The notes beneath the pieces were generated by a model. The model searched no databases. It worked only from the letters and a program-made list of their open reading frames with translations, and was not told the origin of the DNA. This document shows positions 33,594 through 53,290 of a stretch of 64,000 bases of DNA, piece after piece (the stretch's first letter is position 1; every line of letters starts with the position of its first letter). The stretch lies in the NCBI GenBank assembly GCA_012728875.1, contig JAAYEF010000029.1, forward strand, positions 1-64,000, in the 5' to 3' direction. Source of the stretch: Candidatus Cloacimonadota bacterium. Its GTDB lineage: Bacteria > Cloacimonadota > Cloacimonadia > Cloacimonadales > Cloacimonadaceae. A program made the translations under genes and the position numbers.

Positions 33594-34637
33594 TTAATTT
33601 CTGCCGTGTCCGGTAACTTTTCTCAGCACATCCATGGGAGTGGTGTCTTTGTCGGAGTCCTTGCTTTTTGTATCGTTCTGTGATGAACTCCTTTGCACTG
33701 AGCCGCTGTGGCTGCCGCCGGAAGAAGGCTTGGTATTGCTGTCTGAAGGTGTGTGGGAGCTTCCTCCACCACTGGGAGGGTTATATCCGCTTCCGCCACT
33801 TCCACCGCTGCCTCCACCATGTCCACCACCTGGAGGATTGGGAGGATTATAGCCTCCGCCGCCACTTCCGCCGCTACCGCTACCGCCACTCCCACCACTT
33901 GGGGGAAGAGGAGGATTGTAGCCGCCTCCACTGCTTCCGCCACCATGCCCACCTCCGCCTGGAGGCTGGGGAGGGTTGTATCCACCACCACTGGATCCAC
34001 TGCCGCCACCTGGAGGAAGAGGAGGATAGTAGCCGCCTCCACTGCCACCGTGGCTTCCACCGTGTTCACCGCCACCACTGGGGGGATTAACTCCCGATCC
34101 GCCGTGGCTTCCCTGTCCATTGCTGCCAAAAGGCGGACGCGGAGGAATGTATCCGGGCGGACGGGGTTTGTAGCCGCCGGGAGGGGGCGGATACCAATAG
34201 TGGGACGGCCAATAGTAGTAGTCTATGGGACGCGCTCGATAGTAGTTGTAAGAATAGTAGATAACAGTGTTGTAATAGGTGTTGCTCCTGTCCCGGGTGA
34301 GCCGGAAGTTAAAAACAGTGGGATGACGCAGGGCATCACGCTGATTGTCGTACAGGAAGGGCACAAAGAGAGATTTTCGAATGGGGACATAGCCTTCCAT
34401 GGTGATGATCACGTTGATGGTTCTGCCGGGGATTCCCTCATGCAACTCCATGAATTCATCCATCAAAACAGGATAGACCGGGCTTGGCGTGGAGCAGAGA
34501 TAAAGGTCGATGTCTTCCAGATTCACGTCCGCACCTTTGGGCGAGGTCCGGATCTGAAAGGCTCCATAATACTCATAAGCGCCAAGCAGGCTGAAAGCCA
34601 TCAGCAGAGTCAAAGCCAAAAATAGTTTCGTTTTCAT
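33594..34637 (-). CDS. Exported PEGA-like protein with long Gly/Pro/Tyr-rich repetitive tail
   Basis: A 347-residue exported protein. It has a signal peptide (LFLALTLLMAFSLLGA) and a PEGA-like beta domain (about 22-120: FQIRTSPKGADVNLE, VIITMEGYVPIRKS, RDALRHPTVFNF). A Tyr-rich stretch (YYYWPSHYWYPPPP) precedes about 170 residues of glycine-rich sequence in which GGGYNPPLPPGG-like units recur with Ser/Gly spacers. A basic Ser-rich tail ends it. The same domain order is found in the protein at 40092-40673. Such tails are usually disordered and surface-exposed. GGAGG precedes the ATG at 34637; the ORF-track start 19 codons upstream lacks one. A TTGACA lies at 34689-34694. The antisense ORFs over the tail are composition artefacts. 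Confidence 0.82.
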   Translation of the reverse strand: MKTKLFLALTLLMAFSLLGAYEYYGAFQIRTSPKGADVNLEDIDLYLCSTPSPVYPVLMDEFMELHEGIPGRTINVIITMEGYVPIRKSLFVPFLYDNQRDALRHPTVFNFRLTRDRSNTYYNTVIYYSYNYYRARPIDYYYWPSHYWYPPPPGGYKPRPPGYIPPRPPFGSNGQGSHGGSGVNPPSGGGEHGGSHGGSGGGYYPPLPPGGGSGSSGGGYNPPQPPGGGGHGGGSSGGGYNPPLPPSGGSGGSGSGGSGGGGYNPPNPPGGGHGGGSGGSGGSGYNPPSGGGSSHTPSDSNTKPSSGGSHSGSVQRSSSQNDTKSKDSDKDTTPMDVLRKVTGHGRN

Positions 34638-34688
34638 TTTAATCCTCCCATCGGAGTCGTTGTTCTTACAATATAATACTCTGTTTTG

Positions 34689-34814: not shown

Positions 34815-35450
34815 TCAAAGCGGTTTTCGCGCGCTGATGACCACAAAGCCGCCTTCACCATGACCTTTGATGGCTTCCTGCAGGCTTTGAACCTGGTCCA
34901 GATCGCTAAAAATGGTCTGCCAAAATTCCTCAACTGCAAAGCCAGCTTCATCCAGCTTTTGATCGAGCTCGGAAGCGCCAACGAATACGGCTTCACGGTA
35001 GAAGGGGTTTTCGTGTTTGTGGATTTGATATTGACGGCCCAAAAAACTGTCCTTATCCACAAAAGCAATCACCAGCAAACCGCCTGGACGCAGAACCCGT
35101 CTGGCTTCCAGAAGACTTTTGGGAATGCTGTCCACAAAGCAGATGCTGGTGACCATGAGGGCATGGTCCACGCTTTCATCGGCATAGGGCAAGGCTTCCG
35201 CAACTGCGTCTTGAACTTCAAGCCCGCGCTGGTGAGCCTTTTCCCTCATCGCGGCGGAAGGATCGACTCCCTCCCTGATTCCCAGGGGACTGGCAAACAG
35301 GCCGCTGCCAATGCCGATTTCGATCCCTCTGCCGGATGTGGGAAGCACCTTGCGGATTGCTTCCAGTTCACTTTCGTAAACCCAACTGTTCACGGTGAAC
35401 CAGTGTTCATATTCTTCCAAATGCTGGTTAAATGGTTCAACCTTCGGCAC
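34815..35450 (-). CDS. Class I SAM-dependent methyltransferase (methyltransferase-11 type)
   Basis: A protein of about 211 residues with a Rossmann-fold methyltransferase core. The SAM-binding glycine loop is GIEIGIGSGLFA, the acidic second motif lies in EGVDPSA, and the later strand reads RRVLRPGGLLVIAFVD. The N-terminus (HLEEYEHWF) is typical of a subgroup often found beside metal- or radical-chemistry genes in anaerobes; that association is from memory. The ORF-track start is TTG. A GTG at 35450 has AAGGAAG about eight bases before it and is preferred. It overlaps mrp by 14 bases and closes the DUF134 operon. The substrate is unknown. Confidence 0.82.
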   Translation of the reverse strand: MPKVEPFNQHLEEYEHWFTVNSWVYESELEAIRKVLPTSGRGIEIGIGSGLFASPLGIREGVDPSAAMREKAHQRGLEVQDAVAEALPYADESVDHALMVTSICFVDSIPKSLLEARRVLRPGGLLVIAFVDKDSFLGRQYQIHKHENPFYREAVFVGASELDQKLDEAGFAVEEFWQTIFSDLDQVQSLQEAIKGHGEGGFVVISARKPL

Positions 35451-36264
35451 TCTGGGCGCTTCCTTCAACCTTATCGATGATTTTCTGGACTGCTTCCGTC
35501 AAGGCTTCCGCCGAGGGCTGTTTGTTGTTGAAATAGATGTAGGGCTTGCCTTGATCCGCAGAAAGAGCGATGGCGGGGTCGATTTCCAATTCAGCCAAAA
35601 TGTCGGTTTGATATTGGAAAACCAGTTCGCCGATTCCTTCGCCGGTGTAGATGGCGGTTTGTTCGCCACATTTGGGACAACGGAAAAACTTCATGTTCAC
35701 AATCACGCCCAGAATGGGGACATCCATCTTCTCGGCGAAATTCATGGATTTTTTCACGTCCAACACGGCAAGGTCCTGCGGAGTGGTCACAATCACGGTT
35801 CCATCCACATTTCCAAGGGTTTGGATGATGCTCAGGGGCTCGTCACCAGTTCCGGGAGGGCAATCCACAACCAGATAATCCAGCTCTTCCCAGTCGAAAT
35901 CGGTGAAAAACTGTTTGATGAGCGCCATTTTGAGCGGTCCGCGCCAGATGAGGGCGTCGTGCTCGTTTCCCAAAATGGAGGCGACAGTCAGCACCCAGAG
36001 GTTCGACAAAACCTGGATGGGAGTGGGTCTTCCCGTTTCGGGATGCACAGGAATGGGCACGCCTTCAATGTTTGTGAGCTTGGCAATGGAAGGACCGTGG
36101 ATGTCAACGTCCAAAAGTCCCACCTTTTTGCCCTGCAAGGCAAGTCCGTAGGCGAGATTGGTGGCCACAAAGCTTTTGCCCACGCCACCTTTCCCGCTCA
36201 TCACGATGATTCTGTGTTTGATTCTAGCCAAATTGGCTTGGAGTTGGAGTTCTTTTTCGTCCAT
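35437..36264 (-). CDS. mrp: Mrp/NBP35-type Fe-S cluster carrier ATPase
   Basis: A 275-residue P-loop ATPase of the Mrp/NBP35/ApbC family, which binds and transfers [4Fe-4S] clusters to apoproteins in the cytoplasm. The deviant Walker A is SGKGGVGKSF, followed by LLDVDIHGPS. VVDCPPGTGDEP is the switch region, and the cluster-ligand pair is RCPKCGE near residue 197. It lacks the N-terminal DUF59 domain of longer Mrp proteins. It starts directly after the DUF5320 stop (TAAATG), and the methyltransferase gene overlaps its end. Its place among NifX-like and MinD-ferredoxin genes supports a role in metallocofactor assembly. Confidence 0.93.
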   Translation of the reverse strand: MDEKELQLQANLARIKHRIIVMSGKGGVGKSFVATNLAYGLALQGKKVGLLDVDIHGPSIAKLTNIEGVPIPVHPETGRPTPIQVLSNLWVLTVASILGNEHDALIWRGPLKMALIKQFFTDFDWEELDYLVVDCPPGTGDEPLSIIQTLGNVDGTVIVTTPQDLAVLDVKKSMNFAEKMDVPILGVIVNMKFFRCPKCGEQTAIYTGEGIGELVFQYQTDILAELEIDPAIALSADQGKPYIYFNNKQPSAEALTEAVQKIIDKVEGSAQSAEG

Positions 36265-36570
36265 TTATTCAGTTTCTTCCTTTGAGATTTGTTCGTTTAG
36301 CCATTGCAATTGGCGTTCCAGATCTTCCTTTTGGGCAATCAGATCTTCGCGGGTGTAGGGATACATTTCCTCCCCATATTGGTAGCCGGGAGTTCCCAGC
36401 CATCTGCGGCCTCTGCCAGAAGCGCGAAAACCAAATCCGCGTCCACGGCCAAAGCCCCTTGTGCACCTGGGTCCAAAGCCACGTTCACCGGCTCCAAACC
36501 TTCCGCAAGCGCCCATACCCTTTCCCGGACGTCCGTCTCCAAAGGGTCCTTTTCCATCATAATTAGGCAT
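36265..36570 (-). CDS. DUF5320-domain protein
   Basis: A 101-residue protein with the DUF5320 pattern: a Gly/Arg/Phe-rich N-terminal half starting MPNYDGKGPFGDG, two cysteines (GACGRF, RCTRG), and a C-terminal helical segment (TREDLIAQKEDLERQLQWLNEQI) that looks like a short coiled coil. Function is unknown; members are habitually encoded beside NifX-like and MinD/Mrp ATPase genes. A related protein is encoded at 39199-39438. AAGGAG precedes the ATG by six bases. Confidence 0.85.
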   Translation of the reverse strand: MPNYDGKGPFGDGRPGKGMGACGRFGAGERGFGPRCTRGFGRGRGFGFRASGRGRRWLGTPGYQYGEEMYPYTREDLIAQKEDLERQLQWLNEQISKEETE

Positions 36571-36572
36571 TT

Positions 36573-36779
36573 TTATCTCCTTTTATCTATGGATCTGCGA
36601 TCCATGATCGATTCGATCAGCCGGATGAAAAACTCGGCACCGCTGCTGATCAGATTGCGGCTGCCGCTGTCGTTAAAATCCTTTGTCAAGTCACGCCTTT
36701 GGCGTCCTTTTCCACAGGGACCCAAACCCCGTCCAATTCTGCCGTCTCCCAGAGGGCCGGTTCCATCGCGTCCGGGCAT
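36573..36779 (-). CDS. Small DUF5320-related protein
   Basis: A 68-residue protein whose N-terminus (MPGRDGTGPLGDGRIGRG) matches the start of the neighbouring DUF5320 proteins, with one cysteine in GPCGKG. The C-terminal half is different: a short Ser/Asn linker and an amphipathic helix (EFFIRLIESIMDRRSI). AAGGAG lies seven bases before the ATG. Two-base gaps separate it from the genes on either side. It may form mixed assemblies with the other two proteins of this type. Confidence 0.78.
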   Translation of the reverse strand: MPGRDGTGPLGDGRIGRGLGPCGKGRQRRDLTKDFNDSGSRNLISSGAEFFIRLIESIMDRRSIDKRR

Positions 36780-36781
36780 CT

Positions 36782-37123
36782 TTACGCTCCTTGCGCGAGC
36801 TGTCCTCTTTGATATGCTTCATAGGCTTCGCGGACTGTCATTTCGCCCGCACCCACAAAGATCTTAAGTTCCATTTGCTTCAGGGCTTCGGCTGCGTTTC
36901 CGCCCGGGCCGTTTCCCGTGATGAGGACCTGTGCTCCGCGCTCAAATAGTTTTTGTGCGGTTTTCGGCCCGACACCGTGCGCCTGATCTGCAACTTCTCT
37001 ATTGTCAAGATGGCTAAGTTCCTGCGTATCTTCGTTGTAGAAGAGGATGTAGTCTGTTCTTCCGAAACGAGGGTCCATTTTGGAATCCCAGTCCGTTCCT
37101 TTGCTCGTAAAAGCGATAATCAT
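36782..37123 (-). CDS. NifX/NifB-C-terminal-like (dinitrogenase Fe-Mo cofactor binding) protein
   Basis: A 113-residue protein of the dinitrogenase iron-molybdenum cofactor-binding family: MIIAFTSKGTDWDSKMDPRFGR, then VLITGNGPGGNAAEAL. Such small proteins bind metal-sulfur clusters; in sulfate reducers relatives hold a mixed Mo-Cu cluster. No nitrogenase gene is present in the window. The ATG at 37123 makes an ATGA overlap with the MinD gene, and GGAG lies seven bases upstream; the ORF-track start is 17 codons too early. It is the second such protein in the operon. Confidence 0.88.
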   Translation of the reverse strand: MIIAFTSKGTDWDSKMDPRFGRTDYILFYNEDTQELSHLDNREVADQAHGVGPKTAQKLFERGAQVLITGNGPGGNAAEALKQMELKIFVGAGEMTVREAYEAYQRGQLAQGA

Positions 37124-37992
37124 GATAGCTCCTTTTTGATTTGTTCCCAGATCTTTGCAAAGATTGGTTTCCACTTTTGAGGGTCATATTCCACCAGGCT
37201 CTGTCCCTGGGTGATGGCTCGGGAAAAATCTTCGTCATAGGGGATTTCCGCGATGACGCCGATTCCTTCCCGGCCTAAAAATTCACGAATTTGAGAGCTG
37301 ACTCCAGAGTTGAGGTCGGCTTTGTTTATCACGCAGACGCCATGGATGCCAAAGCGTTTGGTGAGTTCCCACACGCGTTTGAGGTCGCTGAGTCCAGATA
37401 GGCTGGGCTCGGTTACAAAGACAACCAAGTTTGCGCCGGAAAGCGAGGAAATCACCGGACAGCCGATTCCGGGGGAACCGTCCACCAGCACATATTCCAA
37501 GCCATCTTCCCCGGCGATGCGTTTGGCGTCTTTTTTCACCTTCGCCACCAGTTTGCCGGAATTGTCTGCACCGATGCCGAGACGGGCATGAACCAGGCTT
37601 GCACCCAGTTTTGTGTTCGAGATAAAGCTCTGCCCCACGTTCTGTTGGGGAAGACTGATGGCTCCCACCGGGCAAACTTCAAAGCAGTATCCACAGCCTT
37701 CGCAGGCCAAAAAGTCAACTTCAAAAACCCCGTGCTTGATTTGGATGGCGTTGAAGCGGCAGACTTCTTTGCAGAGCCCGCAGAAAGAACATTTGGCGGG
37801 ATCAATTTCCGCTTTCAAGCCGCTGTAAAAATCTTGTGCCTGCTTGTGGTCCGGCTTCAAAATGAGGTGCATGTCGGCGGCGTCCACGTCGCAATCCGCC
37901 ATCAGCGACTTTTCTGCCACGAAGGCAAGCGCTGCCGCCACGGATGTCTTTCCGGTTCCACCTTTTCCCGAGATGATGACTATTTCCTTCAT
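37120..37992 (-). CDS. MinD-superfamily ATPase with inserted ferredoxin domain (copy 2)
   Basis: A 290-residue P-loop ATPase with deviant Walker A ISGKGGTGKTS and two [4Fe-4S] motifs inserted after the first strand-helix units: CSFCGLCKEVCRFNA and CEGCGYCFEVCPVGA. DGSPGIGCP is the switch segment. Pairs of these MinD-ferredoxin ATPases are encoded next to each other in many anaerobes, including the Orp/Mrp clusters of Desulfovibrio. They are thought to use ATP for Fe-S cluster or cofactor assembly. It overlaps its partner (ATGA) upstream and the NifX-like gene (ATGA) downstream. Confidence 0.9.
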   Translation of the reverse strand: MKEIVIISGKGGTGKTSVAAALAFVAEKSLMADCDVDAADMHLILKPDHKQAQDFYSGLKAEIDPAKCSFCGLCKEVCRFNAIQIKHGVFEVDFLACEGCGYCFEVCPVGAISLPQQNVGQSFISNTKLGASLVHARLGIGADNSGKLVAKVKKDAKRIAGEDGLEYVLVDGSPGIGCPVISSLSGANLVVFVTEPSLSGLSDLKRVWELTKRFGIHGVCVINKADLNSGVSSQIREFLGREGIGVIAEIPYDEDFSRAITQGQSLVEYDPQKWKPIFAKIWEQIKKELS

Positions 37993-38849
37993 TTGCCGCC
38001 TCCCAAGCTTGAAATCTGGGTATGGATGGCGTCCATACCGGTGCGGATGGAGTCAACTTTGTCGTAAAGCGTTTCCCCGCGGGAATAGAGCTCGGCAACT
38101 CGGCGATCATGCGGAAATGAAGCCCAAACGGGGATGCCTTCAGCTTCGCAATATCTGAACACATCGTCGTTGCCAATTCCAACCCGGTTCACCGCCACAG
38201 CGATTGGTTTATCCAGATGACGCATGGTTTCAACCGCCAGGCTCAGGTCGTGAAGCCCGAAGGGCGTTGGTTCCGTAACCAAAAGGGCAAAATCAGCGTC
38301 TCTTGTGGCGTTGATCACCGAGCATGAGGTTCCGGGAGGGCAGTCCCGAATCTGGAGGTCGGCACCTGCGATTTCCGCTTCAGCATAGGCTAAAGTCTGT
38401 TCAATCAAGGGAGTTGCCATCTCCACGCCGATCTCCATCTTGCTTTCCACAAAGTCCAGACCGTCCTGCTCATAATGACGCAAAAACCCCAGGGATTTTT
38501 GTGTCATGGGCAGGGCATTTTCCGGGCACAATTCGCTGCAGGCGTAGCAACTGTGGCAAAGCTCCGGCATCACCAAAATGTGCTTTCCCAGCTTCAAAAC
38601 CGCATTGAAACGGCAAAGTTCGGAACACTTTCCGCAGAGGATGCAGGCTTCCTTCTTCCATTCGGGCACGGCTCTGAACAGCTGCTTTTCGCGCTTGAGC
38701 TTGCCTTTGAGGAAGATTCCGCTGTTGGGCTCCTCCACATCGAGGTCCAAAAGCGCAACCCTGCGTGTGGCAGCGGCATAGAGCGCCAGATTCACAGCAA
38801 GCGTGGTTTTTCCGGTTCCGCCCTTTCCGCTGGCAATGGCAAGTTTCAT
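37989..38849 (-). CDS. MinD-superfamily ATPase with inserted ferredoxin domain (copy 1)
   Basis: A 286-residue paralogue of the next gene: Walker A ASGKGGTGKTT, LLDLDVEEPN, then ferredoxin motifs CILCGKCSELCRFNA and CHSCYACSELCPENA, and DCPPGTSCSV as the switch segment. The two proteins probably form a heterodimeric ATPase. The ATG shares a base with the stop of the preceding NifX-like gene (TAATG), and the end overlaps the second copy as ATGA, so stoichiometric translation is likely. Confidence 0.9.
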   Translation of the reverse strand: MKLAIASGKGGTGKTTLAVNLALYAAATRRVALLDLDVEEPNSGIFLKGKLKREKQLFRAVPEWKKEACILCGKCSELCRFNAVLKLGKHILVMPELCHSCYACSELCPENALPMTQKSLGFLRHYEQDGLDFVESKMEIGVEMATPLIEQTLAYAEAEIAGADLQIRDCPPGTSCSVINATRDADFALLVTEPTPFGLHDLSLAVETMRHLDKPIAVAVNRVGIGNDDVFRYCEAEGIPVWASFPHDRRVAELYSRGETLYDKVDSIRTGMDAIHTQISSLGGGK

Positions 38850-39181
38850 TAATGGTCGCAGCGGTTTTCGCCGGACTGCAGGTCACCCCGCAGATATTGT
38901 TCCACCAGTTCGCGCAAGGGAAGCTGCGGCGCGCCAATGATAACTTTGATATCTTGTGCGCTCATCAGCTCCTGGGCGCGGTTTCCCATGCCACCGGCAA
39001 TGACCACGTTGCAGCCGTGTTTGTGCAGAAAAGCGGGATGTGATCCGGGTTCGTGGACCGGCGGGTCCAAAATTTCCTCTTTCACGATTTTAGTGTCCTC
39101 GATCGTGAAAATGGCAAAAGCTTCACAGTGTCCAAAGTGGGAGCTGATGCTTCCTTGAGTGATCGGGATGGCGATTTTCAT
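38849..39181 (-). CDS. NifX/NifB-C-terminal-like protein
   Basis: A 110-residue member of the same family as the 36782-37123 product: MKIAIPITQGSISSHFGHCEAF, then VIAGGMGNRAQELM, with a C-terminal cysteine/histidine tail (NRCDH). The His/Cys residues in FGHCEAF and CDH are potential metal ligands. AGGAG lies seven bases before the ATG. It follows the short DUF5320 gene by 17 bases. Confidence 0.9.
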   Translation of the reverse strand: MKIAIPITQGSISSHFGHCEAFAIFTIEDTKIVKEEILDPPVHEPGSHPAFLHKHGCNVVIAGGMGNRAQELMSAQDIKVIIGAPQLPLRELVEQYLRGDLQSGENRCDH

Positions 39182-39198: not shown

Positions 39199-39438
39199 TT
39201 AGTTTTCTTCATTGGTGCTGGGCTCGAATTCCTTCAGCCGTTCTTCAATCCAGCGAACCTCTTTTTCAAGAGCCGCCTTGCGTTCCAAAAGCTCTTCGCG
39301 CGTGTATTCATATATATGACCCTGAAAACCCTGAACCATGTTTGAATCGGGAATGTGCCCAAAACCCTGGCCACGGCCTGCACCGCGACCCATTCCCCGT
39401 CCTCCGCGTCTGGGTCCGATTCCGTCAAAATCTGGCAT
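39199..39438 (-). CDS. Short DUF5320-domain protein
   Basis: A 79-residue protein beginning MPDFDGIGPRRGGRGMGRG, with a glycine/arginine-rich first half and a helical, coiled-coil-like second half (TREELLERKAALEKEVRWIEERL). It has no cysteine, unlike the 101-residue relative, so direct cluster binding is less likely. I start it at the ATG at 39438, where the family begins; the ORF-track start 16 codons earlier lies inside the DUF134 gene. It overlaps the regulator gene by 14 bases. Confidence 0.82.
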   Translation of the reverse strand: MPDFDGIGPRRGGRGMGRGAGRGQGFGHIPDSNMVQGFQGHIYEYTREELLERKAALEKEVRWIEERLKEFEPSTNEEN

Positions 39439-39889
39439 TTCTACCTCCATGGCGGCAACGGCCGCACTTTTTGCATTGTTGTTCATGGCAATCCTTCAGT
39501 GAGACAAGGTTTGGACCTTCGCAATCCGGACAGTGAAACACATATTTTTCTTCGCTTTGGGAAAAGCTGTCGCAGTCCTCACACCAGAAAGAGTGTTCCT
39601 TCAAGCGCACATCTCCACCTTCGATCAGGATCTGCGCACCCTCCACCAAAGCGGAGGCGAATTTCCGCCGGGCACGATCGTAAATTCGGGTCAGGGTGGG
39701 ACGCGAAACCTGCATCAATTCGGCAGCTTCAGCTTGGGTGAGAAGTTCATGATCCAAAAGGCGGATGGCTTCATATTCATCCAAGGCAAGCACCACTTGA
39801 CGGCGCTTCCCTTCCAAGCGGCCATAAGGACGGAAACCTTTGACCAGCGGAGTCGTCTGTACCTGTCTCAATATACGTTTTCTTGCCAT
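39425..39889 (-). CDS. DUF134-family HTH regulator with cysteine-rich C-terminus
   Basis: A 154-residue protein. The N-terminal half is the DUF134 domain, with a sigma-70-region-4-like helix-turn-helix (LDEYEAIRLLDHELLTQAEAAELMQVSRPTLTRI in outline). The C-terminal half has paired cysteines: FWCEDCDS, FHCPDCEG and QQCKKCGRC, a zinc-ribbon or Fe-S-like arrangement. It may let the protein sense metal or cluster status. It is the first gene of the 10-gene operon, and a perfect palindrome over its -10 suggests autoregulation. The ORF track extends it 123 codons upstream through the promoter; the ATG at 39889 is the family start. Confidence 0.88.
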   Translation of the reverse strand: MARKRILRQVQTTPLVKGFRPYGRLEGKRRQVVLALDEYEAIRLLDHELLTQAEAAELMQVSRPTLTRIYDRARRKFASALVEGAQILIEGGDVRLKEHSFWCEDCDSFSQSEEKYVFHCPDCEGPNLVSLKDCHEQQCKKCGRCRHGGRNARF

Positions 39890-39905: not shown

Positions 39906-39921
39906 ATGAACTTATGTTCAT
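39906..39921 (-). promoter_or_regulatory. Palindromic operator candidate for the DUF134 operon
   Basis: ATGAAC-TTAT-GTTCAT, a perfect 6-bp dyad with a 4-base centre, covers the last part of the -10 and the expected transcription start. Binding there would block RNA polymerase. Confidence 0.6.
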
Positions 39922-39948
39922 AATAATCGAACCCGGTCTTTCTGTCAA
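39920..39948 (-). promoter_or_regulatory. Sigma-70-type promoter of the DUF134 operon
   Basis: On the minus strand TTGACA (39943-39948), a 17-base spacer, then TATTAT (39920-39925). This is the best -35/-10 pair in the window. It lies about 30 bases before the ATG. Confidence 0.8.
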
Positions 39949-40091: not shown

Positions 40092-40673
40092 TTAGGGACG
40101 TGGTTTTCCAGAATGACTTCCGTGTCCGCCTTGGTTGTTGCCAGGAGGGTTGGGTCCGCCGGGTCCGTGTGAACCGCCGGAGGGAGGTTTGTGTCCGGGG
40201 CCGGATGGCGGTTTGGGAGGCTGGGGATGATGATTTCCAGGACCATGGCCATGTCCATGTCCGGGAGGGTTCGTGATTGGATAGTAGTATGCCGGATAGC
40301 CGTAGTTCCAAACCGGCGGCGGCGGGGTCAGTTGCAAGGTGAAATGATATACGCTTGGGTTGCGAAGGGCGTCGCGCTCCCACTTTTTGGTGTAAGGAAC
40401 AAAAATCTGTTGGCGCATGCTGATGTAGCCGGGTTTTGAAATCAAAAGATCCAGCATCTGTCCGGGTCTTCCACCCACATACACCATGCTTTGGTCCATT
40501 TGAACCGGGATGAGAATGTTGGGTGATGTGCCCAGATATTGGTTTGTGCCAAACAGGGATACAATTGCGCCCTGGGGCTGGGTGGTGATCTTAAACGCCC
40601 CAAAGATGTTTTGAGCGCTAAGCATTCCGACCGCGAGGGCCAGCATTGTGACGAGCAGGGCTGTGCGTTTCAT
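40092..40673 (-). CDS. Exported PEGA-like protein with Gly/Pro/His-rich tail
   Basis: A 193-residue exported protein, the shorter paralogue of the 33594-34637 product. It has a signal peptide (LLVTMLALAVGMLSA) and a PEGA-like domain (FKITTQPQGAIVSLFG, LLISKPGYISMRQQIFVP, RDALRNPSVYHF). A low-complexity tail rich in Gly, Pro, His and Asn follows, with GHGHGHGPGNHH as its most striking part; this could bind divalent metal. AGGAGG precedes the ATG at 40673 with about five bases of spacing; the longer ORF-track start lacks support. The gene stands alone, with its own terminator. Confidence 0.8.
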   Translation of the reverse strand: MKRTALLVTMLALAVGMLSAQNIFGAFKITTQPQGAIVSLFGTNQYLGTSPNILIPVQMDQSMVYVGGRPGQMLDLLISKPGYISMRQQIFVPYTKKWERDALRNPSVYHFTLQLTPPPPVWNYGYPAYYYPITNPPGHGHGHGPGNHHPQPPKPPSGPGHKPPSGGSHGPGGPNPPGNNQGGHGSHSGKPRP

Positions 40674-40736
40674 GACTTCCTCCTTCAGGAATTTTATGTT
40701 GCTACAATGAATACACAGCCCTTCAAAAATCCTGCA

Positions 40737-53262: not shown

Positions 53263-53290
53263 TTGACAGATAGAGCCGAATAAATAGAAT
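53263..53290 (+). promoter_or_regulatory. Sigma-70-type promoter of the GNAT gene
   Basis: cTTGACA (53263-53268), a 16-base spacer, then TAGAAT (53285-53290), about 106 bases before the ATG. Confidence 0.65.

Follow-up and report, generated by a model that had tools for sequence, protein, structure and literature searches.

A conserved dyad at DUF134 promoters as the predicted operator of a probable autorepressor of an ORP-type iron-sulphur operon

The window, a stretch of 64,000 nucleotides from a Candidatus Cloacimonadota bacterium, carries on its minus strand an operon led by a gene of the DUF134 family. The gene set of an ORP-type operon is complete within it: NifX-like genes, a pair of MinD-like Fe-S ATPases and Mrp. 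The features of the locus, from the promoter downstream, are as follows.

39943..39948, minus strand: −35 element TTGACA, whose distance from the dyad is kept in relatives
39920..39925, minus strand: −10 element TATTAT, with a 2-bp overlap with the dyad
39906..39921, strandless: predicted operator dyad ATGAAC-TTAT-GTTCAT, with a conserved 14-bp core, TGAACATAAGTTCA, of the type I operator pattern TGMACATAWGTKCA
39425..39889, minus strand: DUF134 (PF02001/UPF0251) regulator of 154 aa, with a sigma-R4/DeoR-like HTH and a zinc-ribbon-like C-terminus
39686..39706, minus strand: recognition-helix motif S62-R63-P64-T65-L66-T67-R68, with covariation between the operator and residues 64 and 68
39500..39592, minus strand: zinc-ribbon-like segment with CEDC (C103, C106) and CPDC (C120, C123)
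39199..39438, minus strand: small DUF5320-like gene (MPDFDGIGPRRG...), named by sequence resemblance and with no Pfam match
38849..39181, minus strand: NifX-like (Nitro_FeMo-Co) protein 1, resembling the C-terminal domain of MrpORP
37989..38849, minus strand: MinD-like ATPase 1, with a 2x[4Fe-4S] ferredoxin motif
37120..37992, minus strand: MinD-like ATPase 2, with a 2x[4Fe-4S] ferredoxin motif
36782..37123, minus strand: NifX-like protein 2, starting with ATG
36573..36779, minus strand: DUF5320 protein (short)
36265..36570, minus strand: DUF5320 protein
35437..36264, minus strand: Mrp/NBP35 iron-sulphur cluster carrier ATPase

The DUF5320-like gene at 39199..39438 overlaps the 3' end of the DUF134 gene. 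On either side of the operon lies a gene for a secreted protein with a Gly/His/Pro-rich tail, the two proteins being alike (40092-40676 and about 34000-34640 of the window, minus strand). The predicted promoter TTGACA-17-TATTAT drives the DUF134 gene together with the ORP-type NifX/MinD/MinD/Mrp operon, whose genes are typical of anaerobes. The orp (orange protein) operons of Desulfovibrio vulgaris, which encode MrpORP, the MinD-like Orp3/Orp4 and ORP, hold a homologous set of NifX/ORP-like proteins, two MinD-like Fe-S ATPases and Mrp (PMC6345978, PMC3897727). Their control is through sigma54, the activator DVU2106 and IHF (PMC3897727, PMC6345978), whereas the operon in the window has a sigma70-type promoter and a predicted DUF134 operator.

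On the minus strand this promoter region reads TTGACA-17-TATTATGAACATAAGTTCATTAGAG...ATGGCAAGA, with TTGACA at 39948-39943, a 17-bp spacer, TATTAT at 39925-39920 and then the dyad ATGAACATAAGTTCAT at 39921-39906. The hexamers agree with the consensus at 11 of 12 positions. A preliminary description of the sequence had called them the best promoter pair in the window, and they do have the top score in the 64 kb, but they share it with TTGACA-16-TAGAAT at 53263(+), which also has 11 consensus matches. The same description spoke of a perfect palindrome over the −10 and the start site. The arms of ATGAAC-TTAT-GTTCAT are indeed perfect 6-bp inverted repeats, but the TTAT centre is not self-complementary and 14 of the 16 positions are symmetric, so that the term was slightly overstated. 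The dyad shares 2 bp with the −10, its last two bases, and judged by position it probably covers the transcription start, which bears out that part of the description.

Repeats with 6-bp arms and a 4-bp loop are expected by chance about 16 times per 64 kb (our own arithmetic), and the meaning of this one therefore depends on its conservation. The core TGAACATAAGTTCA, at 39907-39920, has a single occurrence in the 2.17 Mb of the genome. The window has one further site, TGAACCAGTGTTCA at 35396, which was rejected as an operator and taken as chance, because it does not have the conserved ATAW centre and falls at the beginning of the methyltransferase gene downstream. The remaining TGAACN4GTTCA sites of the genome are all within open frames, apart from one that has no obvious gene behind it.

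The first gene of the operon encodes a clear DUF134 member (PF02001, E 1.4e-23, 83.7 bits against a gathering cut-off of 27), confirming the HTH protein with paired cysteines (CEDC, CPDC, CKKC) that had been described from the sequence. Its AlphaFold2 model (mean pLDDT 83.7) has a tri-helical HTH, whose best-defined relatives in the PDB are operator-bound Bacillus subtilis DeoR and sigma region 4. The HTH profile matches that of DNA-bound DeoR with E 2.3e-6, and the model superposes on it with an rmsd of 0.7 Å over 41 columns. A full-length fold search with the model gave no whole-protein match, only matches to the HTH and weak ones to zinc ribbons (HypA, MCM). The two proteins share by sequence and predicted fold not only the HTH (DeoR: PDB 7bhy, 8r7y) but also its SRPTxSR helix. 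In DeoR, Arg34 and Arg39 are reported to contact operator bases (PMC11229326); with numbering deduced from residue spacing, these align with Arg63 and Arg68 of DUF134. The DeoR operator is TTGAA-N6-TTCAA, of which DeoR reads TTGAAC and the right half is TTACATATGTTCAA (PMC11229326), and its TGAA-N6-TTCA geometry is that of the dyad linked to DUF134. Outside the HTH the two proteins differ. DUF134 lacks the sugar-phosphate effector domain of the SorC/DeoR proteins, no SorC effector-binding domain being detected in the 154-aa protein by a Pfam scan, and unlike DeoR it is extended at the N-terminus and ends in a zinc-ribbon-like region, for which some homologues have a fused NifX domain instead.

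Conservation of the dyad extends well beyond this genome. DUF134 is present in 91 of 125 genomes of the phylum, and TGAACATAWGTTCA or TGCACATATGTGCA is found at its promoter from the genus level up to other classes, in surroundings that otherwise differ. In two families the dyad lies over the −10 and in another between the −35 and the −10, while a fourth carries it in two tandem copies. Tandem pairs were seen at five DUF134 promoters, an arrangement that suggests cooperative or looped binding. A scan of 123 genomes with the type I operator pattern TGMACATAWGTKCA returned 85 distinct exact sites, 62 of them 16-47 bp upstream of DUF134; the reversed pattern was nearly without matches. Genomes with such a site make up 61 of the 89 with DUF134 and 5 of the 36 without (Fisher 2.5e-8, a value that partly reflects shared descent and is not to be taken literally).

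The same association holds across phyla. Of a set of 80 loci, the best 80 by similarity of 541 relatives, most have the dyad 24-47 bp ahead of the start codon with no more than one mismatch, and at least one operon gene follows DUF134 in 39 of 43 loci of this set. Dyad-bearing loci come from Cloacimonadota, Bacteroidota, Chlorobiota/Ignavibacteria, Spirochaetota, Neomarinimicrobiota, Delongbacteria, Krumholzibacteria, Methylomirabilis and Mcinerneyibacteriota; in Bacteroidota the dyad sits between the TTTG and TAnnTTTG promoter elements. Where the DUF134 protein has Arg68, TGMACATAWGTKCA occurs within 160 bp upstream of its gene with 0-1 mismatch at 109 of 130 loci (84 exact, 25 with one mismatch). 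In the same regions the reversed pattern is found at 0 of 130, its best match having at least 3 mismatches everywhere, and composition shuffles give 0 of 650. Conservation upstream of orthologous operons, proposed earlier as a check on the dyad, is thus borne out, and so far above chance that a chance dyad can be ruled out.

A site with up to 2 mismatches is missing from 15 of the 130 Arg68-type loci, and operon order accounts for part of these, not all. Four genomes have no dyad directly before DUF134. In three of them another gene, NifX, comes first in the operon, and its TTGACA promoter carries a degenerate dyad (for example TGAGCATATGTTCA); the fourth has the site of one of these three at a matching distance. 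The element tracks the promoter of the operon and not the leader of the DUF134 gene. Of the 85 exact sites in the phylum, 23 are not at DUF134. Several of these lie within coding sequence, while seven are intergenic sites before DUF5320 genes and one precedes Mrp. Since genes of both types also belong to the operon itself, the operator appears to be used in trans too. Three sites in class-level relatives precede a gene for a small lipoprotein (MNKKFLYYSL...TVGCNKSSKYQ) outside the ORP gene set.

The sequence of the operator varies with that of the recognition helix. Among loci of type I, the variable column that shares most mutual information with the half-site's third base is that of residue 64. 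Proline at this position goes with A (TGAAC) in 114 cases and with C (TGCAC) in 9, and serine with C in 66 and with A in 28. All 11 independent Pro/Ser contrasts, on a tree built without the residue 64 column, are in the expected direction (sign test, p=0.0005). Residue 68 goes with the length of the site. Homologues without Arg68, from Clostridia, Treponema saccharophilum and enterobacterial plasmids, have a 12-bp type II site, TGRCAWATGYCA, often in two copies, and the type I site was never found at them. The type II pattern matches 4 of 2000 shuffled sequences, although its consensus was derived from the same sequences and the division into two types rests on few deep clades. Treponema differs likewise from other Spirochaetota, so that the operator follows the protein and not the phylum. 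Plasmid records and IMG/VR supplied the data on type II sites. There were 189 matching plasmid records in all, and the phage records searched gave no match. Type II operators accompany most DUF134-NifX cassettes on gammaproteobacterial plasmids. Such cassettes, often with a PaaI thioesterase, were seen on many of these plasmids. In Salinivibrio the type II sites are all degenerate.

The comparison establishes that the site is conserved, that it is linked to DUF134 genes and the operon promoter, and that it co-varies with the recognition helix. Very probably, then, the dyad is the DUF134 operator, and a DUF134 dimer represses its own operon by blocking RNA polymerase. One Ser-Arg-Pro/Ser-Thr-x-Thr/Ser-Arg recognition helix would enter each TGMAC half-site, in the TGAA-N6-TTCA geometry of DeoR. 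The bound protein would block polymerase at the core promoter and so repress DUF134, NifX, MinD, MinD, Mrp and DUF5320; in some relatives its reach may include DUF5320 or Mrp operons located elsewhere. What we infer here is that the protein binds as a dimer, that it represses and does not activate, and that a signal induces the operon. A dyad lying over the core promoter, whether it overlaps the −10 or fills the 17-bp spacer as in other families, suits a repressor.

The position between the −35 and −10 in several families is also that of MerR sites, which raises the alternative that DUF134 binds the dyad but activates, by a MerR-like realignment of the promoter or by recruitment. Spacers of normal length argue against realignment, being 17 bp in the window and in a related locus with TTGACT-17-TATATT, and in the window and in two families the site overlaps the −10 and the start, a position from which a bound protein should obstruct polymerase. 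Activation is accordingly improbable. Marginally less probable still is a regulator encoded elsewhere, for example of SorC/DeoR type with a similar SRPTxSR helix, that uses the dyad and has DUF134 merely as a target. DeoR itself recognises TTGAAC through the same helix motif, with half-sites likewise 6 bp apart (PMC11229326), but the site tracks DUF134 across phyla together with its recognition-helix residues, and an unseen regulator would have to be co-inherited in every lineage.

The LexA box of the Gram-positive (Bacillus) type is GAAC-N4-GTTC, and the dyad has this core as GAAC-TTAT-GTTC. Control by a LexA-like repressor of the SOS type can nonetheless be dismissed, since LexA_DNA_bind is found in 1 of 50 family genomes (on a 4.4-kb contig) and not in that of the window, the exact sites stand at DUF134, at DUF5320, at Mrp or within coding sequence with none at SOS genes, and TGCAC half-sites are common and track residue 64 of DUF134. 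With DUF134 as the repressor, comparative genomics gives strong support to autorepression.

The preliminary description had proposed a redox- or metal-sensing autorepressor. The autorepressor part of this reading gains from the cross-phylum dyad and the residue-to-base covariation; the redox or metal part is not established, and the cysteines fit structural zinc equally well. C103, C106, C120 and C123 are invariant in 50 of 50 aligned DUF134 proteins, while the third pair is not conserved. Zn_ribbon_8 matches 39 and HypA 38 of the same 50 proteins. The conserved pairs resemble a zinc ribbon, which would fit a structural zinc no less than metal or redox sensing. Gammaproteobacterial homologues are without the cysteine domain, yet they have an operator and an adjacent NifX gene, and at six loci in several phyla DUF134 and NifX (Nitro_FeMo-Co) are fused in a single open frame. 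A NifX-based sensor is thus an attractive idea, to which the fusions point. The inducing signal would most likely be the state of a cofactor (Fe-S, metal) or the redox state, sensed by either the zinc-ribbon-like domain or the NifX-like partner.

In the literature searched, with most subscription papers and all preprints outside it, the family (DUF134, UPF0251, COG1342, PF02001) has no described function, operator or regulon, and the only control found described for an ORP-type operon is the sigma54 system of Desulfovibrio. The present reading proposes a role, an operator and a regulon for a domain of unknown function that occurs widely, and connects it with an operon of anaerobes that is itself poorly understood, the Fe-S/metal-cofactor operon of ORP type. 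Rather more tentatively, and with somewhat less than an even chance of being right, DUF134 may be a one-component regulator that responds to cofactors and controls the NifX/MinD/Mrp metal-cluster system in most anaerobic bacterial phyla, with its NifX-like partner, fused to it in several lineages, reporting Fe-S or metal-cofactor status and two operator classes specified through residues 64 and 68. The residue-to-base rules make the predicted operator directly testable by simple in vitro binding. These rules, residue 64 with A or C in the half-site and residue 68 with 14-bp or 12-bp sites, would allow regulons to be predicted in uncultured phyla.
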